Part shown: piece by piece, positions 7,581-57,989 of the stretch | Layout of the letters: each line of letters starts with the position of its first letter | How positions within the stretch are numbered: the first letter of the stretch is position 1 | NCBI RefSeq assembly: GCF_029227915.1 | Contig: NC_079882.1 | Span: 8,742,001 to 8,806,000 of the forward strand | Direction: 5' to 3' | Length of the DNA: 64,000 nucleotides | Origin: Hydractinia symbiolongicarpus | Taxonomy: Eukaryota; Cnidaria; Hydrozoa; Anthoathecata; Hydractiniidae | Notes under the pieces: model-generated | Told to the model about the DNA's origin: nothing | The model's database searches: none | The model's input: the letters and a program-made list of their open reading frames with translations, nothing else | Made by a program: the position numbers and the translations under genes

Positions 7581-8485
7581 GTTATGACCAGACAATCGTT
7601 ATTTTACCGTCACTGTCAAACACAAAAACTCGAGTCCGCTTAAATTTTACAAAATCAATTTTGCAAAAAAAGATGGAACACTCTTTATAATTGTTTTGTT
7701 TTAATCGAAATTAAATTTCTCTTAATTTATTGAACCAGCAAGTTTTTATGTCTTTTATGTTTCTGTTTGTTTTATTATTTTTCTACTATAATATTAAAGT
7801 TTGATAAGAAATAATTTCGCGCAAATATCGACTTAATATCGACAAGTTTACTTTCTGAATTCGATGTTAATCATTTTATATTCTCAGTGAAAAAATACCG
7901 CCATTACCACTTCTAAACAAAACCCTTTAAAACTGGGAGTGGCATCATGGAAGAAAAGTTATTTTTAAAAGTATTCCCAACCGAAAGAAAACAGATGGCA
8001 ATTTTGCTGGCTTACTTGACCGTAAGAGGTTGAGGTAGATGTTTTTTCTCACATTATTTTTTATCTTCTCACATTATTTTCTCACATAAATCTGATCCGC
8101 CTTAACGATTTTATGTGCGTTTGTTTGTTTATTTCGCGCCTTTTTTATCCCACGTATCTTTAGGAAATTTTTTAATCGGTACCAATTTTCTTAAATCTTA
8201 AATAAAATATGAATTATCACAAAAACTCTAATGAAGTCCAATGTTACACAGATTTTCCATGGAATTAAAAATAATACTGATCTGGCTTGAGTTTAAAAAG
8301 GGACAGGTTAAGGTTGCACTGAATAAGCTTAGACAATTGATGTTGGGGATCAACTTATAGATTAATTGTTATACTATTTTCTTTGTGCAGCTTACATGCA
8401 AGTCAAAAAAAACCTACCACTTTCGAAACTTACGTTCGAAATTCACTTTCTCGTTTGTCATTTTTTAGGAAATATATCGTTAGAG

Positions 8486-9561
8486 ATGGTACTAAATAAC
8501 ACAACCACAAATTCCGATCCGTTTTTGCCATCAATCCTGATCAGTCAAATCCTTGGAGGTTTCCTTCTCGTTTTGTCTGTGGTTGGCTTGGTAATATACA
8601 TCATATTCATCGTGCTCGTGTTCACAAGAAAACGCTTCCATCAGCAATCATTCTTTGTCATTGCCGGCTGGCTTGGTATCGCGGATTGCATCTGTTTGAT
8701 TTTAATGATTGGTTACGCCTCACCGTGTATAATATTGCAAGCAAGTCTAAGCACCAGCAGGGTCATTGGTGGTATCCTCAACATAGGTTGGTTCAGCGGA
8801 TTGCCGTTAGTCACATTAATGGCAGCAAATAGATATTTTTGCATTTGTGATCGCGAAAGATATAGAAAGTTTTTTACATTGAGAAATACGAAGTATTATT
8901 GCGTTGCATCATGGGTGTTTGGGACAATATACTCCACCCCATCATTTTTTGCGTGCTGTCCATTATTTTTTGACTGGATTTTGATGTCATGGGGATGGAA
9001 TTTAAATTACGATGGATCCACTTATCTTAGTTATGGAGAATTAACCATGGTTGTTTTCACCGTAATTGTTATATATAGTTTTAATGTACTTGTCTTCAGG
9101 TAAGTTAATCGTTAAATCCATACTTTCTATCACAGCCAGTAACTATGGTAACAGATTGGTGTATGTTTTCAAGGCCGTAACATTGGTATCTCAAAATTTT
9201 ATTTTTTAGAGATATTCAAAAAGTTAAGAAAGAAATTAACAGAGGGGAATTACAAGAACACGCCCATCAACTTCGAGAAAAAAAAATATTTATACAGTTC
9301 TTCATAACATCAATATGGTTGCTTATATTTGATGTCCCTTTCATTGCTATTGGCTATATTCCTAACCCCGCGTACACGCTGGGATATTTTGTGACAATTG
9401 CGTATGCAGTAAATTGTTCCATCAATGGTTTGGTATATATCCTTATCAATAAAACCATTCAAGTTGAAATAAAAAGAGTGATCGCTCGACACGTTACTGT
9501 TCATCCGAACTCGTTGCATACTTTAGTAACAGGTTTAAGATTGTCTGCCAAGCTGGCTTAG
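8486..9561 (+). CDS. Rhodopsin-like GPCR, Srx-like serpentine receptor (paralogue 1)
   Basis: Exons 8486-9099 and 9210-9561 join as AG|A (Arg) into a 321-residue seven-helix protein. The ATG is preferred because an acceptor (TTTTTTAG) sits 17 bp upstream and the paralogue at 17 kb starts equivalently. Exon 1 encodes an N-terminal NNTTT glycosylation patch and helices 1-5; exon 2 encodes helices 6-7 and the tail. NRYFCICDRERYRKF stands where rhodopsin-like receptors have the DRY motif. Helix 6 contains WLLIFDVPF, and helix 7 has NGLVYILINKT in place of NPxxY. There is no retinal-binding lysine, so it is not an opsin. The ligand is unknown. The similarity to nematode Srx-type receptors is from memory of family motifs and could equally mean a cnidarian-specific rhodopsin-like family. 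Confidence 0.75.
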
Positions 9562-12519: not shown

Positions 12520-13228
<709 letters not shown>

Positions 13229-14121
13229 CTCCAAATAACTGCCCTTGTCGATTATGTAGAAACTACGTAGAGGGTGTTGGTTTCCTTTAATTTGTTCTGT
13301 TTGGATTACGTAATTGAGTCGCTCTTTAAGTTTTTGTTTCTTAGTATTTAAGCCAGAGTGGCAAAAACAGAAAGCAAAAAAAAGTCGAATCCAGTGAAGT
13401 AACATATGTCATCAAGTCGTCTACTGTTGTTAACCAAAAGATGGCGACTGGTGTAGTGTCTGATCCTCCTGTAGTACACGACAACAAGCAAAAGCCTTGA
13501 TACAAGTTAAAGAATAATGCGCCATTATTTTCGGGTTGTTATTTGATGAAGCTACTTCGAGCCAAAGGAGTCTTCTTGAGTAACGGTAAAAATTAAGACA
13601 GATGTAAGGAACGTATTAAATTCAATTTCTTAGCAGAAACACGAAAACACCAAATGTCATCTTACCCGTCAATGCAGCCATGAATAGCAAAGCCGTACGG
13701 TTTAAGCTTATCGTTTCCATCGATATGCCATAAATAGTTCGGATCCTGAAAAAGACACGACGGGCAACAATGTTCGTGCTCTCATCAGATTTGTCAGTAA
13801 ATAAAAGTTTATAAATCACATACTTCACTAATGCACTCTTGCCTTTTTAAACGACGGTGTTTCCTCCTCTCTACGCCGACGGGGTCTACTTCTTTTAGAA
13901 TTTTTCGCACAGATTCACTTAAACAGAGGGTCAATCAATCCAATTATATATAGAATAACGGTTCTTTAAAAGAGACAAGTACAGCATGTGGAGACTTACG
14001 TGCTTTACCTTTGTCCGTACACAACTGACAACTTTTGGTGCATGGCTCTATAACCTAGATTACATCCATTACCCGATACTTCAAATTAAAATAAATAAAT
14101 AGAGAATATGCATAAAAAATA

Positions 14122-16970: not shown

Positions 16971-17072
16971 AGGATTTATGGGAATTAAAGATGCTGTGTT
17001 TATTGTGAGTGACACATAACTCCAGTGTTCGCCATTTGATCTTTTTTAGCAACATTATTGTTTATTGTAGAT

Positions 17073-18505
17073 ATGATGAATAACTTTACAAACACCACAA
17101 CACAAAACTCTCTAGAAGACACTAAAAGAATCCTTGGCAGTTTCCTTCTCGTCTTGTCTCTCTTTGGTTTGGTAACATACATCATATTCATCGTGCTCGT
17201 GTTCACAAGAAAACGCTTCCATCAGCAATCATTTTTCGTCATTGCCGGCTGGCTTGGTATCGCGGATTGCATCTGTTTAATTTTAATGATTGGTTACGCT
17301 TCGCCGTGTATAATATTACAAGCAAGTCTAAGCAGCAGCAGGGTCATTGGTGGTATCCTCAACATAGGTTGGTTCAGCGGATTGCCCTTAATTACTTTAC
17401 TAGCAGGAAATAGATATTTTTGCATTTGTGATCGGGAAAGATTTAGAAAAATTTTTACATCACAAAACACAGGATATTTATGTCTGGGATCATGGCTGTT
17501 TGGTGCAGCCTATTCCATTCCAACATTCTTTTCCTGCTGTTCTCTCAAATTTGACTCCACTATCATGTCCTGGAGTTGGAAGGCAAATCAGGATAAAACA
17601 ATTTATCTTGACTATGCAGAACTAGTCATGGTTGTATTGACGTTCATAATAATCTATGTGTTCAATGCATGTGTCTTAAGGTACGTGTGAGAAACATTTG
17701 TTGTTTTCTATGTTGCTTCTTAAGTACTAGGCAGCAGTCGCGACAACCGTGTTGGTCAAACCTCTGCAGAAAAAAAGTAAAATATTCAGATTAATTTTGG
17801 CGCGTTCTAGCAAAAACTGGCTTGTGAGCGAAATGTAGTCCAGAAATTGCACGCAAATTCTGTTGGGGGATTGATACATGATTGATACATGCAGAGATGC
17901 ATTTGAAATCATCTATACAAAAATACTCTAAGCATTATTATTTCACTTTTTATTTGTGGGGTATTTGAACTTGCGCAAAGATTAATACGCACAAAATACG
18001 TTCATATCGCTATTGCAAATTGTAACATATATTCATCACTAAAATATGTTTACTGTCTGGTGTTACAGACTTTGCATAGAAAACAATTTATTTTAGAAAA
18101 ATCCATCAAGTTGGTGCCCAAATGAGATTCAGCATGATTCGCGAACAAAGGCGACTTTTTTATGAGAAAAAAATCTTCTTTCAGTTTCTTATTACCTCAT
18201 CATGGCTACTTATTTTCGACGTTCCGTTCGTAGCCATTGGATATATGTCGAGCGTGACGTATAAATTTGGCATCTTCGTTACCATGGCTTACGTGGTCAA
18301 CTGTTCTATTAACGGATGGGTATACTTGTTTATGAATAAAACTGTTCAAGCGGAAATTAAAAGAAGCCTTTATAAGAGGGCGCCTGTTAGTCCAATCAAA
18401 AGCGTGACTTCAACTCGAATCTCTATCATCACATGGAAAAAACATACCGTGGAAATGAAGAGTTATTCGAAAGATAATTACGTAATACATGATCAGAATA
18501 AGTAA
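17073..18505 (+). CDS. Rhodopsin-like GPCR, Srx-like serpentine receptor (paralogue 2)
   Basis: Exons 17073-17680 and 18097-18505 join as AG|A (Arg) into a 338-residue seven-helix receptor, the paralogue of the gene at 8.5 kb with the intron at the same position and phase. An acceptor (TTTATTGTAG, ending at 17070) lies just before two consecutive ATGs. The N-terminus has NFTNTTT glycosylation sites. Helices 1-5 are in exon 1 with NRYFCICDRERFRKIF after helix 3; exon 2 holds WLLIFDVPF (helix 6) and NGWVYLFMNKT (helix 7), and a longer, Ser/Thr/Lys-rich cytoplasmic tail that could be phosphorylated. A block of exon 1 is almost identical in DNA to paralogue 1 while exon 2 is clearly diverged. The ligand is unknown. 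Confidence 0.75.
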
Positions 18506-39857: not shown

Positions 39858-41816
39858 ATGGCAAAAAATGAAGTACTTCCTGATTCTTTCGACGTAATCG
39901 TTTGTGGTACTGGATTAACTGAGTCTATGATTGCAGCGTCCCTGTCACGTATTGGGAAAAAAGTACTCCATATAGACCGAAATGATTATTATGGCAGCCA
40001 ATGGGCAACATTCAACTTCAAAGCCTTGTTAGATTGGACAGAAAAATGTAAAAATAAGTCAAATGCTACTTCTTCGCAGGAAAATACTCAAGAAAGTGTG
40101 TTTAATGTTCCATTGCATGATTTTTGTGTTAGTAATATTGTTATTGAATCTTTTATTCCCACAGACAATGATTTAATAGAAAGTCATAAAGATGACAAAC
40201 ATGAGGAAGGTAGAACTACTACAACTTCAATTGAAACAAACGATTCACCTCCTGACATGGCTGGTGAGAGTGTTTTCGACAAAAATTGTCAAAGTGAAAG
40301 CAAGGAAAGCAAGGAAAACAGATCAGAATTAACTTCTCCAGAAGATGATGTTAAAGAGAAGGAATCCATGGATAATCAATTGACAATAGAGAATACATTA
40401 GATGACAATGTAAAAAATGAATTATCTGCAGCAGTAACAAAACCACCACAGAGTATTATTAGTCAAGCTAAAATTAAAGATGGCAGCTCCGACATATCTT
40501 TAAAAGATTTTGAAATTCTCTCAAGAAAGTTTAACTTGGACATCACTTCTAAATTTTTATTTTCGGCTGGTCCTTTAGTGCAAACAATAATCAAAGCTAA
40601 TATTGCACATTATGCTGAATTTAAAGTTGTCAACAGAATCTTAATGTGCACAAACAAAGAAATTATCGAAGTGCCCTGCAATCGTGCTGATGTGTTTAGC
40701 AGTAGTTTTTTAAGCATGATTGAAAAGCGCATGTTAATGAAATTTTTAACATTATGTGTAGAGTTTGATGCCGACTCTGAAGAAATTCAAAGTATGAAAG
40801 ATCAGCCTTTTCAAGAATATTTGAAATCCAAAAGACTGTCTGAAAGTTTACAGAAATTTGTGATTTATTCAATAGCTATGGTGAAACCGCAAACACCAAC
40901 GCTACTGGCATTGCATGAAACTCAAACTTTCTTGAAATCTCTAGGACGATTCGGAAAATCACCTTTTATATGGCCATTGTTTGGTGTGGGTGAATTGCCA
41001 CAAGCATTTTGTCGAATGAGCGCTGTATTTGGTGGGTTATATTGTTTACGTACTGATATTCAATCTATTGTTACAAATGTGGATTCTAATAAATGCACGC
41101 ATGTTATTGTTGATGAGCAGAAAATTGAATGTCAGAATGTTGTTATGGAATCAAGTTATGTTCCTCAAAAATTTTTAAAATCAAATGTGTCAACGATTTC
41201 AAAATGTATTTTAATAACAAACAAATCCCTTGTTTGTTCAGATGAAGAAAATATATCTTTCTTAACGATTCCACCACTACCAGGAAGAGACGAGCTTGTG
41301 CAAGTGATCGAGTTAGGTCCGGCGTCATCAGCTTGTCCCGCTGGGTTGTATGTGTTATACCTCACATGTGTATCAAACTCAGTTGCAATTAAAGATTTAA
41401 AGGATTATGTTAACCTTTTGACAGAACAGAATGGAACAACAAGCAAGCCAAAATTGCTTTGGTCTTTCTACTTTAACCACCTGCATGAAGTTTCGTTTAC
41501 TGCACTCCCAAAAAACGTCATGGTAACGCCAATGCCAGGTCCAACTTTGGGATTTTCACAATCCGTTGAAGCAGCTGAAAAAATATTTAAGTCAATATGC
41601 CCAGATGAAGAGTTTATGTTAAAGGTACCTGATCCTGAAGATATTATTTGGGAGCATGATGAAGTCACAAAGGAGGAGGAAAAACAAGAGGATGACAAAC
41701 AGAAAACAATCAATGAAAATAGTATTGATGGCCAAGTTGATGATTCGACAGAAAAAAATGCTTCAAGTAATACTTTGTGTGACAAAAATATTGAGAATCT
41801 TAGTGGAAATCCATGA
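39858..41816 (+). CDS. CHM: Rab escort protein (Rab GGTase component A), single exon
   Basis: 652 residues in one open frame, about the length of vertebrate REP-1/REP-2 (roughly 650). It presents newly made Rab GTPases to Rab geranylgeranyl transferase and delivers the prenylated Rab to membranes; the family is related to RabGDI. The N-terminus carries the FAD-like nucleotide fold (VIVCGTGLTES, residues 13-23) and the REP/GDI block HIDRNDYYG (38-46). A long acidic, Ser-rich insert (about 65-205) is followed by the second conserved region (FNLDITSKFLFSAG), PLLALHETQ-like and GRFGKSPFIWPLFGVGELPQ blocks (about 365-385), and an acidic C-terminal tail from about 590. A long insert after the first block distinguishes REP from RabGDI. 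There are no introns in a region where the neighbours are split. AATAAA at 42059-42064 could serve as the poly(A) signal. Confidence 0.93.
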   Translation: MAKNEVLPDSFDVIVCGTGLTESMIAASLSRIGKKVLHIDRNDYYGSQWATFNFKALLDWTEKCKNKSNATSSQENTQESVFNVPLHDFCVSNIVIESFIPTDNDLIESHKDDKHEEGRTTTTSIETNDSPPDMAGESVFDKNCQSESKESKENRSELTSPEDDVKEKESMDNQLTIENTLDDNVKNELSAAVTKPPQSIISQAKIKDGSSDISLKDFEILSRKFNLDITSKFLFSAGPLVQTIIKANIAHYAEFKVVNRILMCTNKEIIEVPCNRADVFSSSFLSMIEKRMLMKFLTLCVEFDADSEEIQSMKDQPFQEYLKSKRLSESLQKFVIYSIAMVKPQTPTLLALHETQTFLKSLGRFGKSPFIWPLFGVGELPQAFCRMSAVFGGLYCLRTDIQSIVTNVDSNKCTHVIVDEQKIECQNVVMESSYVPQKFLKSNVSTISKCILITNKSLVCSDEENISFLTIPPLPGRDELVQVIELGPASSACPAGLYVLYLTCVSNSVAIKDLKDYVNLLTEQNGTTSKPKLLWSFYFNHLHEVSFTALPKNVMVTPMPGPTLGFSQSVEAAEKIFKSICPDEEFMLKVPDPEDIIWEHDEVTKEEEKQEDDKQKTINENSIDGQVDDSTEKNASSNTLCDKNIENLSGNP

Positions 41817-43365
41817 CAACAATTATTTCTTTTAATATCTTCTTGTCCTTTACTATTATTAGCAGCTTTTATACAAATTTAATTAAACCCATTATAACTT
41901 ATTTTAATAACTATCATCTATCATAGCATGGTTGGTTGAAAATAAAAATATTGTTGGTTGGCTTTTCGTGTGAAAGATGAAATGTTTAAAATTTTACTAT
42001 AAATTGTCTTTCAAGAATGGGATTTATTTTATTTTTGGTATTGAAAAAAAATTGAATCAATAAATCAAATGGAATAAAATAATTACTAATAAATTGATAA
42101 TTTATTAAAATCCACAAAATGCTATCTGTGATGTCATATAAATAATGTATGATAAGAAATATCAGCTTTAGGGAAAATTTTTGTCTTCATGCTAGATTAT
42201 GTTGAATGGTTCATTTTTTTTGCAGCCACAGCAGAATAGGAAGTTTTTGACCTTTTGTTGACAATGCTTGTCATTATTAATCAATCAAGTTGTAAAAGAA
42301 CAATAAAATAACTTGTTTCTCTGAATGGTTTGTAAAGGTCAAAGAGCAGAGGAAAGAGTTTTTACTTTTAATGTTTGTATGCTTAGAATTTCTCTGCCAG
42401 CAGGGTTGAATGAAATTATTATTTCTAAAATTTTGCTTACTGTTGAATTTCTTATTGATATTTTCCTTTGACTTTGTATGCGAAAGTGAGTTGATTAAAT
42501 TCACAACGTAATGTTTATTCAGCTAAGTCACACAATTATGTAGTTGTTAACATGAAAAAAGGAAGCAAGTCGAGTAAAAGTGCACTATACACAATCCTTG
42601 ATTGTTTTCACATTCCTATGATGTTATTTTTACAGGTAAACGTGTGTCACTTTTTGTTTTGTAAGAATATATATTTCTGGAAGTTATTTTATATATGTTT
42701 TTATTTTTTTATTGTGGTGATGATTTTTTAAGTTTTTTTTGTATGAATAGAAAATCGTAAGTTTCTGTTTTGCAAGTTGAAACGTTAGGCGGATGTTTTA
42801 GTGAGAGTCTTCTAACCTTTTACACTTACTATAAAAAATAGAAAAAGCTTGTGACATTTGTTCCTTTAAACTACAGTGTATATGCTTTGATTTTATTTTG
42901 ATGTGTATTTGTTGAGAATAGGATAGAATATAGATATTGCTTTATATTTTGTTGTGAGATGCAAAAAACATGCATAATATGTTTGTGTCGTTCACCCAAC
43001 AGCTACTTTTGATTAATGGTAAAAAATTGACTAATTTTGATATGTTTTCTCAATTCCCATTTTCTACAGGTTTTTTCAATGATTTTTTTGACAGATTTAT
43101 GTTATTCTAAATTTTTAAAAAATATAGCAGCATTCATACCATATTTCTGGATTGGTAAAATGTGTCTCCTTTGCTAGTATATTTGCTTGCTTAGAATGTG
43201 CTTCATTTTCTAAAATGCATCATGTCCCTCTAATATGTCTCGATTAGTATAATTTGTAAAAAGATACAAAAAAGAATCGGTGTAGAATACACATGTTAAT
43301 TTTCTTTGTCTGTTAAATTTTTTAGATTTTGTAAATATATACTTTGACATGTGACCTTAGTAATA
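41817..43365. other. 3' UTR of the REP gene and intergenic spacer
   Basis: AT-rich, with several AATAAA/AATAAAA motifs within 300 bp after the REP stop (for example 42059-42064). No further gene is seen. The STIM promoter must lie here, but no element could be identified. Confidence 0.45.
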
Positions 43366-46300
43366 ATGGGTTACAAAAAATACATTCTCGTGTTTCTTTT
43401 ATTCAGCAAACGAGGTAAGAAATTATCTTCAACGCAAGTTATTGTTTTGTTTTTACTAAGAAAAATCCATGCAATAGTAATTTGACAGTGGATTGAAAGT
43501 CGGAGGACTGGACACTAATCTTTGTGTATGTTTTTGTTTAGTTCTGGCAGTGTCAGATACATCATTTGATGCCATCAAAGATGTACACCAACATTTAGAT
43601 GATGATCATGATGGAAATATTGATACCAAAGAATCTGCTAATGTATGTATCCCTTCTGTTAATACGTTTACAGGATGTTAGCTAGCCTTGTTCTTGAGTG
43701 TTAGAAGTTGAGAATACTTGTTCACATTTTTATCTATTTTTCACCATGGGATGTCTGGAGGGATATAAGAACCCCAATTGTGAATTTCTAGCGAACACTC
43801 ACCTGGTTTTATTACATGAGAATATAAGGTCTTATTTTTATTTTATTTTTTTATATTTAGTATGTGGAAACAGAATCAGAGGCTCCAGTGTCGTCATGGC
43901 AGTCTTCTTTTCATGAAGATGACTCCCAAGTATCTGTTGATGATTTATGGAGAAAATGGACGAAGAGTAAAGGTGAAAAAACAAACTTATTCTACTCTCC
44001 TTTATTATTTACCCAGAATATCTTCTTCAGATCCTAATAGTGCTGTTATCAATGAGTGTTTTGCGAAGAGGTCCTAGTGCATTTAAAGTTCCTATTTGAG
44101 CTATACGCGTGGAAGCAGAATAATCGCTCAACTAGATAACCCCCTAAGATATCAATCATATTCTCATGCTAAACGCTAAGTAGAAAGGATCGATTCACAT
44201 TTTTATAGTCTATGGCATGACTTGTCTGGGGAATAAACCAATGACCTTACGCACTGGAGGCGAACGCTCTGCCACAAGGCTACCAGTTCTTCCTAAACAA
44301 AAATTGATAATCTATCTTTAACTTTATTTAAAACTGGATACAAATGGGAAAAAGAAAGAATGTGAAAAAATATTTTGTTGTAGTTTATAAATGGAGTATC
44401 AATGACGTCATTCACTGGTTGAGAAATACTGTGAAGTTGCCAGAATATGAGAAATATTTTATTCAAAATAAAATTGACGGTACATTAATTCCAAGGTATA
44501 TATATTTTTATACTGCCATCTTTTGTGTTGTTGTATACAAAAAAGATTATTAATCTCTATATTAATAATAGCTGTCTGTCTGTATGTTTGCAAAAGAAAC
44601 TCCGTGTTACGGAAACACGAAATATTATTAATAATACTAATGGTAATATATTTCGACTCCAATTAAGATATACAAATTGGCTTTTCTTTCGAAATAGCGT
44701 ATAATATGTGTGTGTGATGGAAAAATAAATAATAAAGAAATGAAGAAATGCGATATATAAAGGACTGGCGACCCCGTGGATTTTTCCACCGGTGGCCATC
44801 AAGTCGTTATAATAATGGCCGTCGCCTGTCTGTTACGGAAACACAAAATGTGATATATAAAGGACGGGTGACACCGTGGATTTTTCCACAAGTCGACGAC
44901 TAGTCTATATTATAATACTTAACTTTTCCTCTGTGAGCAACAAAACATAGCAGATGCGAGAGCGGTAGGCGAATTCCCGTGTATTTTACCGACTGATGAA
45001 TTGCCGTGGATTTCCACGAGCTTTCGAATATTATGTAAATAATTATTATATTTAGTATGTAAAACGTATTTCTTTTCAGACTTGCAACTCCGAAAACAAA
45101 TTTTGTTCAAAAAGTGCTCAAAGTAGGAAACGCCAATCACCGTAAGAAGATCTATCTTCGTGCAACTGACCTGGTGTTGTTTGGACCTCCTGAAGGTAAG
45201 GGAAGCGTTCACTAAGTTGCAATAATGAATTACACAATAAAACTGATACATGAATGCCTAGCAAGGATAGTAACATCAAAATCTTTATTATTTTCATACT
45301 AATAATTACTTTGGTCTTCATGTCAGCCCCCTACATAAAGCGTTCCGCACTATTACTTTCTTTGTTCTGTGACAGCAAAAACTAATCCTAATTATCTAGC
45401 GTTATGTGAAAAAGAGTGAGTACGAAGTGCTATATATATATGTCAATACAAAGCTGCATAGCAAAATTGTTTACACAGGAGATAATGTCACTCTTGACTA
45501 GTCTTGTACAAGAGGGTAAGGGGGGAGTCTGTAATAAATGTAATAAATTAATGATATCTAATATTACATTTTTTGTTTTTATTTTAAACAAAAACAAACA
45601 CTTTGTTTTTCTTTGTTAGCATTCAGTCAATGACAATATCCAGATATGTCTTAAGGGATTAATTTTCGCGGGAATTAATTTTCTTGGATTTCGCAAGTTT
45701 TTGTCAATTTCGCGAAATTTATGTCCCGCGAAAATTACTGAAAAACTCGATATTCGCATTAGTTTTCTTTCTTTGTTGGAAAAAGTGGAAATTCCACTAA
45801 TTTTTTTCTTCTTATGCACCTAAGACATATAATGTGAATTCCAACTTCAGTAATCTTTATTTAATGTCTCTATATACACGCCCTTGAAAAAACAGGATAA
45901 ATTGAGAAACAAAATGTCATCAATTTTTTTTGCAGAATTTGCTAAATTTAATTGTGACGGAATATTAGGACGCGCCTACTTCACCCAAAATTATTTCCAT
46001 CGAAATCTATTTATTTTCAAAAAATTTCGCGCGAAAATTATGATGACGTCATAGATGCTAAGAAACAATCGCTTGTATAAATGACAATAGGGATAACTAA
46101 GTAATAATATCCATGTAAATATGTTTGAAATATTAAACTGGATAACTGAAAACATATTTTCGTCACAACATAAACCATTAAATACAACACTCTGATTTTA
46201 TGGGGCCTACGTAATTAGTGTAATTAGCAAGCTTGCGTTAACGAATCATTCATGCTTCATTTCCAAAATTTTCCCACATCATACATACCGTGGTAGTTAA

Positions 46301-49300
46301 AATTGGATATATCTAATGACGCTTTAAACTTTGTGCGCAGTTTCCATTGTTTGCGATTTGTTGTTGTTTAGATGAAAAAGTAGAGTCAACAAAATTAGAA
46401 ATGGATAAAAATTTTCTTGCTATCAAAGCTGTACATGCACACCTTGACGATGATAGAGATGGGAATATTGATACAGATGAATCAGTAGAGGTGCGTCACG
46501 TGATATAATTTTTGTAATTCCATAATTCACACTTTTCAACATCAAATATGTTCGTGTTCTTCTGAAAATATATGGTCGGATTTACGGCTGATGATGAATA
46601 TTTTTAGGCTGAAATAGATAATGTTAAATTTATCTTATTCGAAAAAAAATTAAAATTGTTCTAAGTAGTAGTAATTCTAGACTCGCATTCTTCTTATAAT
46701 CTTTAAAAGGTTTCAGGTTTAGTTTATTATTATATATATACTTTGTATTTAGCTAAATATCAACCTTCTACGTTCTGTTAAACTAGTTTTTTTAACAAAC
46801 TTGTGAAAAACTTGTATTTTATAAAAAATCTATATTATAAAGCCCGTATACGTCTGTCCGTCGGTCCGTCTGTCTGTCACGCAAAAAGGTAGCTTAGCTG
46901 CGACGGGCGAACCCGTGGATTTTTCCACGGGCTAATGACTATTATAAAGAAGGATATAGCATTCAATTCTTTAAATTGTTAACGCCCGGAAAGATAGCAT
47001 AAAATAAAGAGTTCAAAATGTAATAAAAAATAAAAAACCTAGCAAAAATATATATGTAGAACGGCTAAACAAGAATGATAGTCTTATCTACTAACACTCA
47101 CAATTTGAGAATTATGCTCAACTTGATCAGTTTATAATGAGTTTGAACTGTGAATTTAGTCTACAAATTTAAAATTTGACTTCGGTAGAGTTCGAATCAA
47201 CTTTTATTCTTTAGTACATGCGAGATGAGTTGGAAGAAACGAGCACGAAACGTATTTCCATCTTTCATAATAACGACAATGAAATATCTGTGGACGATTT
47301 ATGGAAAAGTTGGCAAAAAAGCGAGGGTAGGCAAGCATCCTTCTAGCTTCCCCTGTTCTCTGTGTTAGACTTGGTTTAACTTATTTTTATATCTTTTTTT
47401 TTTCAGTCTACAATTGGACAACAGATCAAGTTATTCAATGGCTGAAAATTACCGTTGGTCTTCCTCAATACGAGAAGAATTTTCGCGAAAAGAATATTGA
47501 CGGAAAGAGCATTCCTAGGTAAGGCACTGTTTGTGTGAAAATGACATCCAAAAAGTGTCCTGATTTGTTCTGCACACTTCCTTATATGGTCAATCTCTTT
47601 TAGAATTGCAACCGATACAACGCATTACTTACAGAAAGAATTAGGTGTGTCTAACCCAACGCATCGTCGAAAGATTTACTTGCGATCATCAGACATTATT
47701 CTATTTGGTGTGCCAGAAGGTTTGTGAAGCGATCGTTTCTTTTTGTTCTCATAATGCACACTTGTTGCTGGTCGTAATTGCATCGTTTTATGCTCCACCC
47801 GTTTTGTTCTAGTTCGCCAAAGTTATTTTAACGACACGATTGTACTCATCGTTGTTTTGCTCGCTTCTCTCGTGTGCGTGTACTCGTTTCGTGAACGCAC
47901 ACGCACGCGTAAGTTGATGGAGCATATGTCCAAAGATATGGAATCGCTGCAACAAGCTGAGTCGACCCTGAAGAATATGCAAGAATCGTAAGCTATATAA
48001 TTTTACAAGGTTTAGTCAAAATAAAGTAATAAAAAGTAACAAAGCTTTATTATGTATAATAAATTAAAACGTTTTTGTTTATGGTTTTTAGACTTGAAGA
48101 TCAAAGGAGACAAAGTGGAGAGGATAATTCTGATAGAGAACGCGAGCTGCTTGAAGAGATTGAATCAGCAAAAGTATGTCTTTTAAATCATAATACCGTA
48201 ATAAAGCTAGTGAGACGTCTAAAGGACACAGCAAATGTAAGCCTTCGGGTGTTTACGCTTGAATACGCTTTTTCACATCTCAGAATTAATCATTGACACC
48301 CAACCTGTTTTCTTGAGAAAATAAGAAGAGGAAATAGACGAAGCCTAGGATAAAACAGTGAAAGAAAAAGGCTGGTTGTCATTTCATTGCTCTTTGGTAA
48401 CAGCTACCGATGATTAATAGGCTCACTCTCCATAATACTAACGATGACAGAATTTTAAAATTTTAATTAGTTGCGAACAGTTTAAAAGATCAAAATGCAA
48501 ACAGTTAGGCGAGAAAAATTTTTACCTGCATGCCTATATACTTCCGGGCAAGAGCATTTTAATGGAAACTATCTGCAAGAATAAAACATAACAAAACTGG
48601 TCAGAAGAATAATGTGGACGAATAAAAAAACGCAGTTAACACCGAACGAGGAGGAGCTTATTGTTGTGTTTTGAACTTTGATACGGATTGACTTTAAGAT
48701 ATGTTTGTTTTGTAACATACACGAGACATTTTTCTTATCTGTTTATGTGTAATTTAAACTGATTTGTTTGTTTGTTTTTGTTTGTTTGTTTTTTTGTTTT
48801 GTTTGTTTCAGAACTGTAACACTAGGGCGTGTTTGATTTGCCAAGTCTGCGTGTAGCTGCACCTATATTGTCGTCTTTCAATGTTCTTGTAATTTTTATT
48901 CTCGTTAAATAAAAGGATACTGGACTAAATTCCTTCCGTTGCCATTTTTTTAGAAAGAAGCCGAAAGACTTCGCACAGAGAGAGGTAAAAATCAAGAAGA
49001 AAAAATTAAATTATCACTTGTCGAGCAAGAGCTCTCCGAAGTTCGGTTAGCGTTAGCTAAAGCTGAGTTGGAGATGAATCATTGCCGGCTGCGCTCACCG
49101 AAAGCGTTACAGCAGTGGCTTCAAATGACATACAAGAAAGAAGCGGAACATTTTCAATACAAAAAGCGAATCGCGCTTACTCAAATGGAGGAGGCGAAAG
49201 AAGCGGTGAGTTTTTTTTTCTCGAATTTATCAGTGTTTCGAGTTTCGATAACTTTGCAGTTTTTAGGGTTATTTTTTATTTGAGTAAACATAGTGCTTTC

Positions 49301-50465
49301 ATTTTATTTTTTTTAACGACATTTTCACACCTTACATGGTATTGTTTACATCTTATATGGTATCGTTCACACTTTCATTTTGTGTTTTTTCAAGTCCGCC
49401 TGTGTTATTTTGTTTTCTAAACAATTGCTTTTGTCTGGATTAGTGTGACAAAGTAAGCAAGACAAGACGCTCTGTTTTTGGTTCGTTACGTTTAGCGCAT
49501 GGTCAAACTATCGATTCTGTGGATCAAAAGATACTTGACGCGCGGTAGGATATTGTTGTCTTTCTACTTATTTTTATTTTAGTAAGTATGTATATCAAAG
49601 CGCTGTTTTTTCTAGGAGTGCTTTAGCAGAAGTAACGAACGACCTGCAAGAGCGTCAGGTCCGGTGGAGAAATATCGAAGAAATCTGTAACTTCAATATC
49701 GCTAATGATGGGTTGCTTGCTGCTAAAAAAATCTCTGAAAGGAAGAGTTCGATTGGCCAATATTTGGCAGACGTTGCATCTTTCGGTTTAAACTCTGTTC
49801 CATGTAAAGAATCTCCTCGGTCAATTCGTAGAAACAGTGGCCAAGAGAATAATTTAACTGATTCCGAGGTTGAAAACCTCACTTCGAAACGCGCTAATGT
49901 AAAGGAGACAGAATACACGTCGAGTCCTGAAAGTGAAAAATCTAGTAAGAACAATATATCAGAAGGTCCACAACCTTCTGCGTCGTTGATCCAAGAAAGT
50001 AAAACATTCAAAATAGGTCGAGACTCGCCAGTACAGTTCATCGAGAGCGGGAAAGACGAGTCGAACCAAGGGAGAGATATGTTGCGATCTGCTTCGGATT
50101 ATACACCACTTCATCGAAGCCCTGAGAGGGTGATAATGCGCGCGCAGACGGAACCGAATAACATGTCTCGGATGGCCTTTATGAATGGAAAATTTAGGCA
50201 AACATCCGAACAACGAAAAAACGAGAATAGAAAATCGCTTGATGCTGAAAAGGAGTACAGTGGTAGCAGAATTGCGGAATTTATAAGTTCGCAGGAACTT
50301 AATCGTAGTGCAAACAATTCTGATTGCGAAGACATTTCTTATTTATCGGATGACTCGATCTCGTCGAGTGCTTCAACGGTTCATTCGAAGAAGAAACGCG
50401 TGAAGGGATCATCAATCCGTAGATTGTTTAATCGCAAATCGAAGTCTGAGAAATTCGCTAGTTGA
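43366..50465 (+). CDS. STIM: STIM-family ER calcium sensor with two tandem EF-SAM modules, 14 coding exons
   Basis: Exons 43366-43414, 43542-43642, 43861-43972, 44384-44495, 45080-45195, 46372-46490, 47215-47326, 47407-47518, 47604-47719, 47813-47987, 48092-48173, 48954-49205, 49444-49544 and 49616-50465 join in frame (2409 bp, 802 residues). A signal peptide (MGYKKYILVFLLFSK) leads into EF-hand 1 (DDDHDGNIDTKE, 36-47) and SAM 1 (to about 163), then EF-hand 2 (DDDRDGNIDTDE, 189-200) and SAM 2 (to about 316), one membrane helix (about 325-342), and a coiled coil. The Orai-activating SOAR/CAD region follows, from SPKALQQWL (about 450) to VRWRNIEEICNFNI (about 545), then a Ser-rich tail ending in the polybasic KKKRVKGSSIRRLFNRKSKS. 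STIM senses ER calcium loss and gates Orai channels at ER-plasma membrane contacts. Vertebrate and fly STIM have one EF-SAM unit; two here is unusual. The only atypical donor is GTGAAA after exon 3. Confidence 0.88.
44219..44292 (-). repeat. tRNA-derived SINE fragment in a STIM intron
   Basis: On the minus strand: GGTAGCCTTGTGGCAGAGCG (A-box like), then CGCCTCCAGTGCGTAAGGTC, then GGTTTATTCCCC (a decayed B box). It cannot fold as a complete tRNA and lacks an acceptor stem, so it is a SINE head and not a tRNA gene. Confidence 0.5.
44557..45040 (+). mobile_element. Cluster of three Helitron-like copies in a STIM intron
   Basis: Copy 1 (44557-44799) has CTATATTAATAATAGC, GTCTGTCTGTATG, GTTACGGAAACACGAA, then CCCGTGGATTTTTCCACCGG. 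Copy 2 (about 44805-44903) has TTATAATAATGGCCGTCGCC, TGTTACGGAAACACAAAATG, GGACGGGTGACACCGTGG and ends CGACGACTAG. Copy 3 (44904 to about 45040) starts TCTATATTATAATACTT directly at that CTAG and ends in a decayed CCGTGGATTTCCACG hairpin. Confidence 0.6.
45199..46371. repeat. STIM intron between the two EF-SAM cassettes, with TTTCGCG-rich repeat
   Basis: At 45650-45745 a short element is rich in TTTCGCG/CGCGAAA (GGGATTAATTTTCGCGGG, then ATTTCGCGAAATTTATG, then CCCGCGAAAATTAC), and related CGCGCGAAAATT motifs lie near 46025. No second signal-peptide exon or ATG that would open an independent gene for cassette 2 is seen just upstream of 46372. Confidence 0.45.
46372..47719 (+). other. STIM EF-SAM cassette 2 (four exons, phase 1-1)
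   Basis: Exons of 119, 112, 112 and 116 bp; the last three lengths are identical to cassette 1. The first exon joins G|AT (Asp) to the end of cassette 1 without a frameshift. It encodes DDDRDGNIDTDE, ISVDDLWKSW, VYNWTTDQVIQWLKITVGL and KIYLRSSDIILFGVPE. It resembles classical STIM EF-SAM slightly more (LPQYEKNF). Roughly half of the residues match cassette 1, so the duplication is old. Confidence 0.85.
46829..46938 (+). mobile_element. Helitron-like copy in a STIM intron
   Basis: Starts TCTATATTATAAAGCCCG, has GTCCGTCTGTCTGTCACGC, CGACGGGCGAACCCGTGG and the perfect hairpin CCCGTGGATTTTTCCACGGG. It ends CTAATGACTA, one base short of the family's CTAG. It is the most compact well-preserved copy (about 110 bp). 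Confidence 0.7.
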
Positions 50466-55462: not shown

Positions 55463-57989
55463 ATGCCTGGCGAAAATTGCTCTATATACGGTTGCACAGT
55501 TTCACGAAGGGCTAAATATAAAGGTCTATCTATTTTTAAAGTTCCTGCTGGTGGAATCAATTTGACAAGTCGTGGAGAGAAAAGTTAGTTGATGTTGTGA
55601 TAAGAGATAGGGAAGTTGATCATGCTCTAAGGAATAGAATTCAAAGAAAGAAAATATACATTTGTGAAAAGCACTTCAGCGAAGATCAAATGAATCGTAA
55701 CCACTCTAGCAGAACCACACTTGTTCCCGGTGCTATCCCCACAATAAACCTTCCTATCAAAAGTTTTCCTTCATCCTCCACATCTTCTAAGCCTCGTCAA
55801 TCAGCACAATCAATTTTGCAGAAAAAAATTGAACCAGTGGAAAATGTCATTACTGATCAGTACAAGTCATTTACAGATTTTATTTCTAAAACTCAGTTAT
55901 TGAAATTAGTCGGTTGGAGTTTTACCTATACAAGTGATTGTGCTTCTTTTGCCTGTCATGATGCTATCCACTCAGTTCCAAAGTATGAGATATATGTTGA
56001 TAATAATCTTGTTTTTGCTGTTCGTGTTTTATTATGGTCTGTTCCTGCTAAACACGACATTTATTCTCAATCACTAAAACTTATTACAATCACATATTTA
56101 ACAAGATTAATTATGGATTTGAAATTATGCCCAGGTTTGACAGACCACTTTGCTGGTAGCTGTCTTGAGCACTGTGTTCCAAAAGTATTTAACATCAAGG
56201 ATAGTACTAGTGCACCTCTTCATCAAAGCAAATGGTATCGATCTCCAAATTGCATAGTTCTTATTCCACCTTCTTCTGAAAAATGCTTGGAATGTGTTAG
56301 GTTGTAGTCAAAAGAAAGCCTAAGTTTGAAAAGGAAAAGGGACAATTTAATTTCACCTGCCAAACTTAAAGCACCAATTTCCATGACTTCTCCAGACCGA
56401 ATCATAAAAACCCTTCAAAATCACCGGTTGGAAAATAAAGAATTAAAGGAAGAGTTAAAGAAAATGCAAGATGAAATTTCCACTTGTGCAGTTCCAGTCC
56501 AAAAAAGTCTTGGTGATGATTTCATAAAAATTATGTCAACAACTAATCGCAAGATACCACCATTCATGAAATTTTTTTGGGAAGAGCAGCAGAAATATTT
56601 ATCATCATCGAAAACTGGTGTTCGCTATCATCCTATGATCATTCGTTACTGCTTGGGTTTAGCTGCAAAATCCCCCGCCTTTTATGATGAGATTCGTGTT
56701 GACGATAAGAAAGACAGTGGTTTCTTGGTACTCCCTAGTAGACGTCGTTTAAGGGACTATAAGAACTATATTCGTCCAGAGCAAGGTTCTAACAAAGACG
56801 TTATCCAGGAATTGTGTAATATGGTCTCCAAATTCCAACCACATGAGAAATATGCAATATTATTAATGGATGAAATGAAAATTCAAGAAAGTCTTGTGTG
56901 GGATAAGCATAATGGTGATCTTATCGGTTTTGCTGACCTTGGTGATATTGATCTAAATTATGTTGCGTTGAAAAAGGTTGATGAAATTGCATCTCATGTC
57001 TTAGTTTTTCTTGTGAGAAGCATTGTAAATCCTTTAAAATTTTCATTTGCAAATCCAAACCGACGAATGTACCATATGCACCTAAACATGACCCGTGTAG
57101 CTGACATTAATGCAGGAGTGGACGTAACATACCGCACTTTGAATGTTATGGCGGATGAGGAACGGTACATCTACTTCATCTCAGATCCACCACACTTAAT
57201 TAAAACAGCCCGCAATTGCCTGAGTAATTCTCTTGCAGGAAGATGTATCAGAAGTATGTAGAATGATGGAAGTTATATCACCTGGAACCATATTTCAAAG
57301 TTATTCCTTGATGACTTAGACTGTGGATTACATCTTGTTCCTAAAATAACAAATGACCACATCAAGCTCACACCATATTCAGTCATGAATGTACGTCTGG
57401 CAGCACAAGTGTTAAGCGAATCTGTCTTTAACGCTCTTAAATTGTATGGACCACTAGAAGCTAATGCAACTGCCAAATATTGTAATATGTTCGACCAATT
57501 TTTTGACTGTCTTAACGTCAAGAATACCAAAGAAGCAGCAATTAAACGTAAACCATTTCTTAAACCGTACACATCTGTTGATGATGAAAGATTCTTATGG
57601 TTGACCGAAACATTTCTAGGATATTTCAAACATGGAAGGATTCAATTGCTGATAGGCCTGGTAATTTTACGGATAATGCTAGAGCAAATATGTTTATTTT
57701 ACGGCAAACCTACCAAGGAATCAAAATCACTGTCCATTCTACTGTTGAATTAATCCAGTATTTAATTAATAATGGAGTTCCATATGTACTGACAGAAAGA
57801 TTTTGTCAAGATCCCCTTGAAAACTACTTTGGTCGTCAACGTGCAATTGGTCATAGGAAAGATAACCCATTAATCCGTGATTTTGGTTATAACGACAACA
57901 CAATTAGAACACAAAAGATTTTCCGACCCATAGCTGGTAACTGTCATGAAATTGATATTGAAACTGTGCCATGCCGTAAGAGCAATTAA
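55463..57989 (+). pseudogene. THAP-domain P-element-type transposase, broken
   Basis: A zinc-binding THAP domain (CSIYGCTVSRRAKYKG ... IYICEKHF, a C2CH pattern) is followed by a spacer and a leucine-rich coiled coil (HRLENKELKEELKKMQDEIS). An RNase-H-like domain follows, with the likely acidic residues in LLMDEMKIQ, in FISDPPHLIK and in CQDPLENYFGRQRAIG near the C-terminus. Disruptions: a frameshift near 55565-55590, in-frame stops at 56305 and 57259, and a frameshift near 57610-57650. The catalytic acids are still recognisable, so decay is recent to moderate. Related to THAP9 and P-element transposases, which cut and paste DNA using GTP as cofactor. Confidence 0.85.

Follow-up and report, generated by a model that had tools for sequence, protein, structure and literature searches.

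Gene structure and domain architecture

The window analyzed here (64,000 nucleotides of Hydractinia symbiolongicarpus contig NC_079882.1) contains, at 43366–50465 on the forward strand, a 7,100-base gene whose 14 exons join in frame, with no internal stop, to a predicted STIM protein of 802 residues. All 13 introns (13/13) have GT..AG boundaries. Two successive four-exon blocks, exons 2–5 (module A) and exons 6–9 (module B), each encode an EF-SAM region; within them, exons 3, 4, and 5 measure 112, 112, and 116 bases, as do exons 7, 8, and 9, with identical phases. Features are listed below in window coordinates.

42410..42485, + strand: candidate alternative first exon from a scan; 25 residues, long hydrophobic run, phase-1 donor
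43366..43414, + strand: exon 1; start codon and short signal-peptide-like run
43542..43642, + strand: exon 2; helix E of module A plus its canonical EF loop (residues 36–47), matched by Pfam EF-hand_STIM1
43861..43972, + strand: exon 3; region of the module A hidden EF-hand, absent from the genome-wide EF-hand profile matches
44384..44495, + strand: exon 4; opening portion of the module A SAM
45080..45195, + strand: exon 5; module A, remainder of SAM, C-terminal FGPPE
45196..46371, + strand: intron 5; 1176 bases separating modules A and B, without a convincing first exon
46372..46490, + strand: exon 6; linker, then the canonical EF loop of module B (residues 189–200), matched by Pfam EF-hand_STIM1
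47215..47326, + strand: exon 7; region of the module B hidden EF-hand
47407..47518, + strand: exon 8; opening portion of the module B SAM, including the NWT glycosylation sequon at residue 243
47604..47719, + strand: exon 9; module B, remainder of SAM, C-terminal FGVPE
47813..47987, + strand: exon 10; transmembrane helix (about residues 325–341) between a short linker and the start of CC1
48092..48173, + strand: exon 11; CC1 coiled coil, aligning to 6yel and 4o9b
48954..49205, + strand: exon 12; CC1, then SOAR (first half)
49444..49544, + strand: exon 13; SOAR apex (VFGSLRLAH)
49616..50465, + strand: exon 14; last portion of SOAR, followed by the variable cytosolic region, the basic tail, and the stop codon

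Pfam profiles for the STIM EF-hand (EF-hand_STIM1, PF25578), SAM (PF07647; cut-off 20.5 bits), and SOAR (PF16533; cut-off 25 bits) recover the domains expected of a STIM, with the luminal set present twice. The EF-hand profile scores 123 bits over two stretches, with modules A and B both above the cut-off; SAM is likewise found in two stretches (35.6 bits for module A alone, 50.8 for module B alone), and there is one SOAR (125.2 bits). The profile match to SOAR at 49438–49548 extends beyond exon 13 at both ends and includes two TAG triplets, which, given the exon edges, fall within the flanking introns or span their boundaries. Two canonical calcium loops are present, DDDHDGNIDTKE (residues 36–47) and DDDRDGNIDTDE (residues 189–200), and ligand positions 1, 3, 5, 7, 9, and 12 are retained in both. 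Against solved EF-SAM structures, module A aligns with E-values of 3.5e-33 (STIM2) and 1.3e-32 (STIM1), and the full protein, with its best stretch in module B, with 4.1e-36 (STIM2) and 3e-35 (STIM1); the CC1/SOAR region aligns to structures 3teq, 6yel, and 4o9b. About a dozen residues link module A to module B, and module B adjoins a membrane helix predicted from hydropathy only, as a single stretch of hydrophobic 19-mers scoring above 1.6 (residues 319–345, highest at 324–342). The C-terminal tail is basic, with 11 K/R versus 1 D/E in the final 30 residues. One EF-SAM per chain is the usual, though not strictly defining, STIM layout; the predicted product departs from it with two modules in one frame.

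A first-pass annotation of this DNA had described most of this architecture. Its call of a STIM agrees with the Pfam domains and the matches to STIM structures, and its model of 14 exons in one frame encoding 802 residues, with the same three exon lengths (112, 112, 116) in both copies, is reproduced by the joined exons. Exon joining and Pfam likewise uphold its two EF-SAM modules in one frame, its perfect calcium loops hold at every ligand position in both modules, and its single membrane helix and single SOAR are recovered by hydropathy and PF16533, respectively. The single signal peptide that it proposed is less certain: the hydrophobic run of exon 1 (43366) is present but short, at about 8 residues followed by SKR (with an upstream in-frame stop at 43345), and there is a second candidate first exon. 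Of these two candidates, as judged from hydropathy and inspection, that at 42410–42485 has the longer run; it would join exon 2 in frame, and an in-frame stop lies just 5′ of its ATG.

Profile searches of the 481-Mb assembly returned two matches for SOAR and three for the STIM EF-hand (two above cut-off), and all five fall in this gene. No second STIM was thus found in the assembly with these two profiles, which were scored exon by exon for the best candidates only; a second STIM of highly divergent sequence might have escaped them.

Origin and retention of the two modules

Modules A and B are 55% identical over 142 residues (E = 2e-57). Their codon positions one to three show identities of 64.8%, 74.6%, and 41.5%, only 4 of the 23 four-fold sites common to both modules match, and the NG86 method gives a dN of 0.38 with no finite dS. 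Because silent sites are saturated while the proteins remain alike, the duplication looks old, and selection appears to have retained both copies. Module A maintains 147 codons without a stop, for which the probability in random sequence of the same composition is 1.2e-5; a chance open frame is rejected on this basis. In a comparison with three EF-SAMs from the PDB, modules A and B group apart from the others in 81% of 200 bootstrap replicates. A tblastn search of the window did not identify a third EF-SAM, the only match outside the gene having an E-value of 0.63.

These data are best explained, and with fair confidence, by an old in-gene duplication of a four-exon EF-SAM block in which both copies were kept, the main product probably being one ER membrane protein with two sensors in series, module A outermost and module B nearest the membrane. 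Joint splicing, ER location, and the brake and avidity discussed below are the parts of this tandem-sensor explanation that we infer. The splice sites that would join the modules are consistent with it: the exon 5 donor and exon 6 acceptor rank among the best in the gene, and in a leave-one-out comparison only 0.2% of the window's GT sites, and likewise 0.2% of its AG sites, score as well as they do.

However, each cassette has phase 1 at its beginning and at its end, and skipping either preserves the frame, so that sequence alone does not place both modules on one chain; isoforms with a single module would be equally compatible with it. It is conceivable, if on balance unlikely, that A and B are alternative cassettes producing one-EF-SAM STIMs with different set points, the tandem form being rare or coexisting with them. 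Module A would be chosen by joining exon 5 to exon 10 and module B by joining exon 1 to exon 6, and one gene would fill the roles of both vertebrate STIM1 and STIM2. The predicted exon 5–10 join (FGPPE-VRQSYF) does resemble the normal exon 9–10 join (FGVPE-VRQSYF), and the 45% difference between A and B is of the order of that between STIM1 and STIM2 (40%). Equal phases, though, are not evidence of splice choice, since any duplicated in-frame block shows them, and the splice sites that would join A to B are strong. Additionally, skipping module A from exon 1 (43366) would drop VLAVS and leave a hydrophobic run ending SKRDEK, which we take to be a poor signal peptide; this objection is weaker if the first exon is that at 42410.

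A reading that overlaps the tandem-chain explanation, and that we consider rather improbable, treats module A as a decaying or structural spacer without sensing of its own. Module A is more distant than module B from other EF-SAMs, by a mean of 0.041 (97% of bootstraps above 0, with a 95% interval of −0.002 to 0.086), and it lacks the NWT sequon of B. Yet none of its calcium ligands is lost, its frame stays open, and of the 47 positions invariant among the three PDB EF-SAMs it keeps 34, as compared with 36 in module B.

Less probable still are two transcription units, in which the exons up to exon 5 would constitute a truncated or secreted EF-SAM gene and a one-EF-SAM STIM would start before exon 6. 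Translation continuing past exon 5 yields GPPEGKGSVH and then a stop, meaning that transcripts left unspliced there would encode a soluble EF-SAM of the lumen. When intron 5 was scanned loosely, one candidate first exon (45440–45515) with a phase-1 donor emerged; 41 other stretches of the window, each 1176 bases long and scanned alike, gave none. However, that candidate reads MSIQSCIAKLFTQEIMSLLTSLVQE, which is unconvincing as a signal peptide by eye, module A comes with neither a membrane helix nor a SOAR, and the exon 5 donor is among the gene's best. The separate upstream gene that the first-pass annotation had named as its own possible refutation is unlikely, given one weak intron-5 candidate and no other SOAR found in the assembly. 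The intron-5 and upstream candidate first exons, 76 bases each, are alike at 28 of 76 positions, a value reached by 95 of 2000 shuffles; this is borderline and weak as an indication of common origin, and aligning all three candidate first exons revealed nothing further on that point.

An assembly or haplotype artefact, the other refutation envisaged there, can be set aside as very unlikely: the A and B copies differ at 45% of residues, a repeat search over 43300–48000 showed that corresponding introns share no long repeat, and the HiFi reads from which HSymV2.0, an earlier published version of the assembly, was built have an N50 of 13,241 bases (PMC10411563), which exceeds the length of the gene.

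Comparison with known STIM proteins

Vertebrate STIM1 and STIM2 share with the Hydractinia protein a luminal EF-hand pair and SAM, one membrane helix, CC1, SOAR, and a basic tail, and the EF-SAM and SOAR regions here align to their solved structures. They differ in having one EF-SAM, as compared with two predicted in the Hydractinia protein, and in the lumen, which lacks cysteine in the 802-residue model. Of structures 6pw7 (EF-SAM) and 3ter (SOAR), which we take to be those of C. elegans STIM, 6pw7 aligns as one EF-SAM against two in Hydractinia, and 3ter shares Leu at the SOAR apex position. C. elegans has one STIM (PMC11506743), matching the single gene found in the Hydractinia assembly. 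At the position of STIM1 Phe394, alignment places Leu in the Hydractinia protein, as in STIM2, where the counterpart is L485 (PMC10616141). The idea that a heavy luminal brake compensates for a SOAR clamp made weak by Leu at the Phe394 position loses ground, since 3ter has Leu there as well.

Tandem SAM proteins such as AIDA-1 are scaffolds not known to carry a calcium-sensing EF-hand beside each SAM. The likeness to AIDA-1, a tandem SAM protein (PMC11506743), lies in the serial SAM domains within one chain.

The first-pass statement that other STIMs carry one EF-SAM agrees with the papers and structures compared. Among the matches listed from the open-licence literature, most of the longer sets being on other topics, no title or abstract opening describes a STIM with two EF-SAMs. 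In one set (27 of 31 listed), the wordings "tandem," "double," "duplicated," and "second EF-SAM" are absent, and the only mention of "two EF-SAM" refers to the two chains of a dimer and not to a doubled module. STIM1 and STIM2 splice variants are covered in one paper, the available passages of which name no doubled EF-SAM (PMC7795233); in those of a coral paper, STIM1 is named once, in a list of transporters (PMC8382919).

Proposed mechanism and significance

How the luminal domain restrains and triggers the channel is an active research question, and recent work describes EF-SAM as both brake and accelerator (PMC12718381). In that study, resting-state occupancy was 70% for STIM1, 59% with EF-SAM removed, and, when the larger MBP took its place, 91% (the legend gives 92%). 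By extension, with calcium bound, modules A and B of the tandem protein would both be compact and would together form a bulkier spacer holding the dimer's two membrane helices apart, a stronger resting brake than one EF-SAM. Once the store is emptied, the SAM of module B would pair across the dimer and zip the membrane helices and CC1 together, releasing SOAR to open Orai. The SAM of module A might add avidity within the dimer or form a bridge to neighboring dimers, favoring clusters; the two EF-SAMs would act as a bivalent accelerator after calcium loss. Pairing between the A and B SAM domains within one chain could instead keep the protein off. The first-pass annotation had itself raised two thresholds, altered valency, and luminal association within a chain as possible consequences of the doubled sensor.

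If full release requires calcium loss from both modules, activation would need deeper depletion. In an independent-site model, moving to two sensors shifts half-activation from 0.41 to 0.19 Kd and the effective Hill coefficient from 1.19 to 1.30; as this barely steepens the response, sharper switching would need cooperation. More tentatively, hydrozoans, and maybe more cnidarians, might rely on a sole STIM with two obligatory serial sensors, in which a heavier brake and a bivalent crosslinker give deeper and more switch-like activation, and to which cassette splicing may add single-sensor set points.

A natural double-EF-SAM STIM would provide a direct test of the brake and accelerator idea, because brake size, calcium sites, and SAM valency change together in it and could be separated by removing either module. 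As a case from a laboratory animal, it would also demonstrate that duplication of the sensor head can occur and persist. The switch that refills a cell's calcium store may depend on two sensors carried by a single chain.

Related sequences elsewhere

Querying a bacterial contig collection for relatives returned 45 stretches that fit the pattern, none of which was confirmed. In a viral contig collection, 3 of the 10 pattern matches encode a piece with similarity around the EF loop, extending over 42 residues or fewer; for one of these three, none of the listed frames of at least 60 residues reads through the match in its frame. The general SAM profile has 32 matches in the Hydractinia assembly, two of them in the STIM gene (44392–44496 and 47412–47519) and 30 elsewhere.

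Gene model and domain architecture

The single reading frame that the first-pass annotation proposed for the STIM gene was recovered in full: 14 exons (window 43366-50465, plus strand) join to 802 residues, laid out as follows.

Domain layout of the predicted STIM protein
N-terminal end, before residue 17: signal-peptide-like start
Residues 17-163, exons 2-5: module A, the outer EF-SAM (EF-hand pair and SAM)
Residues 164-317, exons 6-9: module B, the membrane-adjacent EF-SAM
About residues 325-341: membrane helix
Between membrane helix and SOAR: CC1
Residues 450-548: SOAR
C-terminal to SOAR: variable region, then basic tail

The doubled EF-SAM above one SOAR, also part of that annotation, is borne out by Pfam, with two matches to EF-hand_STIM1, two to SAM, and one to SOAR, every one over cut-off; the claimed repetition of exon lengths likewise holds, with 112, 112, and 116 bases in exons 3-5 and again in 7-9, and phases are equal as well. 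Three solved EF-SAM structures, from STIM2, from STIM1, and from a further STIM (6pw7), each match both modules, and A and B share 55% identity with each other across 142 aligned residues. Apart from the number of sensor modules, and with its signal peptide putative, the gene is a STIM in each feature tested.

Profile searches of the whole assembly (480,894,487 bases, 76 contigs) returned two SOAR matches, both within this gene (exons 12 and 13); that in exon 13 lists two stops because the match overruns the exon. The STIM EF-hand profile returned three, in exons 2, 6, and 7 of the same gene, that in exon 7 below cut-off. These searches score exon by exon and retain only the best candidates, and so do not prove the absence of divergent copies. 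If A and B are always spliced together, this would be an animal without any single-sensor STIM visible to either profile. HSymV2.0, an earlier version of the Hydractinia assembly, was built from HiFi reads with an N50 of 13,241 bases (PMC10411563); words beginning STIM, Orai, or calcium are absent from that paper.

Divergence and age of the duplication

Identity between modules A and B is 64.8%, 74.6%, and 41.5% at first, second, and third codon positions, respectively; 4 of 23 common four-fold sites agree, and NG86 gives a dN of 0.38 with a dS that is not finite. A copy drifting freely this far would be expected to hold stops (the chance of none in 147 random codons, the length of module A, is 1.2e-5), and we infer that both modules have been selected as protein. 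Module A diverges more than B from the PDB EF-SAMs, with borderline significance.

In a tree of only five sequences, A and B cluster together in 81% of 200 bootstrap replicates, with a path length of 0.85 substitutions per site as compared with 0.69 for STIM1-STIM2. The corresponding difference in raw distance, 0.054, is non-significant (95% -0.053 to 0.162), which, if rates were alike, gives the duplication an age comparable to that of the STIM1/STIM2 split. A doubled EF-SAM would then be expected in other hydrozoans, such as Podocoryna, whose separation from Hydractinia is placed at about 127 million years in the accessible part of PMC13119343. Scans of bacterial and viral sequence collections did not find STIM.

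Among the matches listed in literature searches, none was a STIM with two EF-SAMs. A comparison of about 70 STIM1 orthologues does not mention a doubled EF-SAM in the portion available, and words beginning cnidaria are absent from it altogether (PMC11506743). Database gene models may already contain a tandem EF-SAM STIM.

Splicing and the 5' end

Splice sites at the junction from exon 5 to exon 6, which joins A to B, are excellent. The end of exon 1, the start and end of each module, and the start of exon 10 are all in phase 1, and thus A-only and B-only products would also be in frame; equal phases are obligatory for a duplicated internal block and lend no support to module choice.

The 5' end of the gene adds doubt as to tandem use or choice. 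Exon 1 at 43366 encodes MGYKKYILVFLLFSKRVLAVSDT; a candidate alternative first exon (42410-42485) encodes MKLLFLKFCLLLNFLLIFSFDFVCE, with a long signal-peptide-like run, a good donor, and a stop directly before the ATG. The scan for start exons that identified this candidate required a hydrophobic run and a phase-1 donor, with signal cleavage assessed by eye. It also gave one candidate in intron 5 (weak as a signal peptide) and none when applied to 41 other parts of the window, each 1176 bases long.

Intron 5 also holds, between the modules, an imperfect inverted repeat (45660-45737; 37-base arms, 76% complementary). An interspersed repeat with a GTGGATTTTTCCAC core (44746-44916, 46902-46946) occurs twice in intron 4 and once in intron 6.

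Calcium sensing and proposed mechanism

The calcium loops described as intact are so: ligand positions are identical in the EF loops of A and B, and differences are confined to positions 4 and 11 (H/K vs R/D). Module B has an NWT sequon, absent from A, that aligns with the glycosylation-sequon Asn of STIM1, which we take to be Asn131. At alignment column 134, four residues ahead of the Leu in LFG, the three PDB sequences share a Leu (presumably STIM1 Leu195, which anchors the end of the SAM domain), and each module carries Thr or Ser instead. In the SOAR apex, Leu occupies the Phe394 position, as it does in another STIM (3ter); in STIM1, Phe394 to Leu raised the share of cells that cluster spontaneously from about 7% to more than 40%, according to the available text of PMC10616141.

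The STIM1 EF-SAM is described as a steric brake with calcium and an accelerator via SAM pairing when empty, and resting occupancy rose from 70% to 91% (text) or 92% (legend) when the larger MBP replaced it (PMC12718381, in part). We infer that two modules would impose a harder brake at rest and that, on emptying, their pairing would gain avidity or would link one dimer to another. Under a simple model of independent sites, all required to be empty, half-activation calcium would be about two-fold lower, with little steepening.

Other features of the window

39858-41816, plus strand: intronless 652-residue open frame of the Rab escort protein type, with matches to GDI and to RAE1/2 domain I; STIM exon 1 lies 1549 bases downstream
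8366-9103 and 17058-17690: a pair of seven-helix receptor pieces that resemble each other, scoring best against the Srx chemoreceptor model, a name that comes from nematodes
12595-13405: long (CTGT)n four-base tandem repeat with several frames open
55597-57261: successive THAP-domain and TNP-like RNase H frames, resembling a P-element-type transposon
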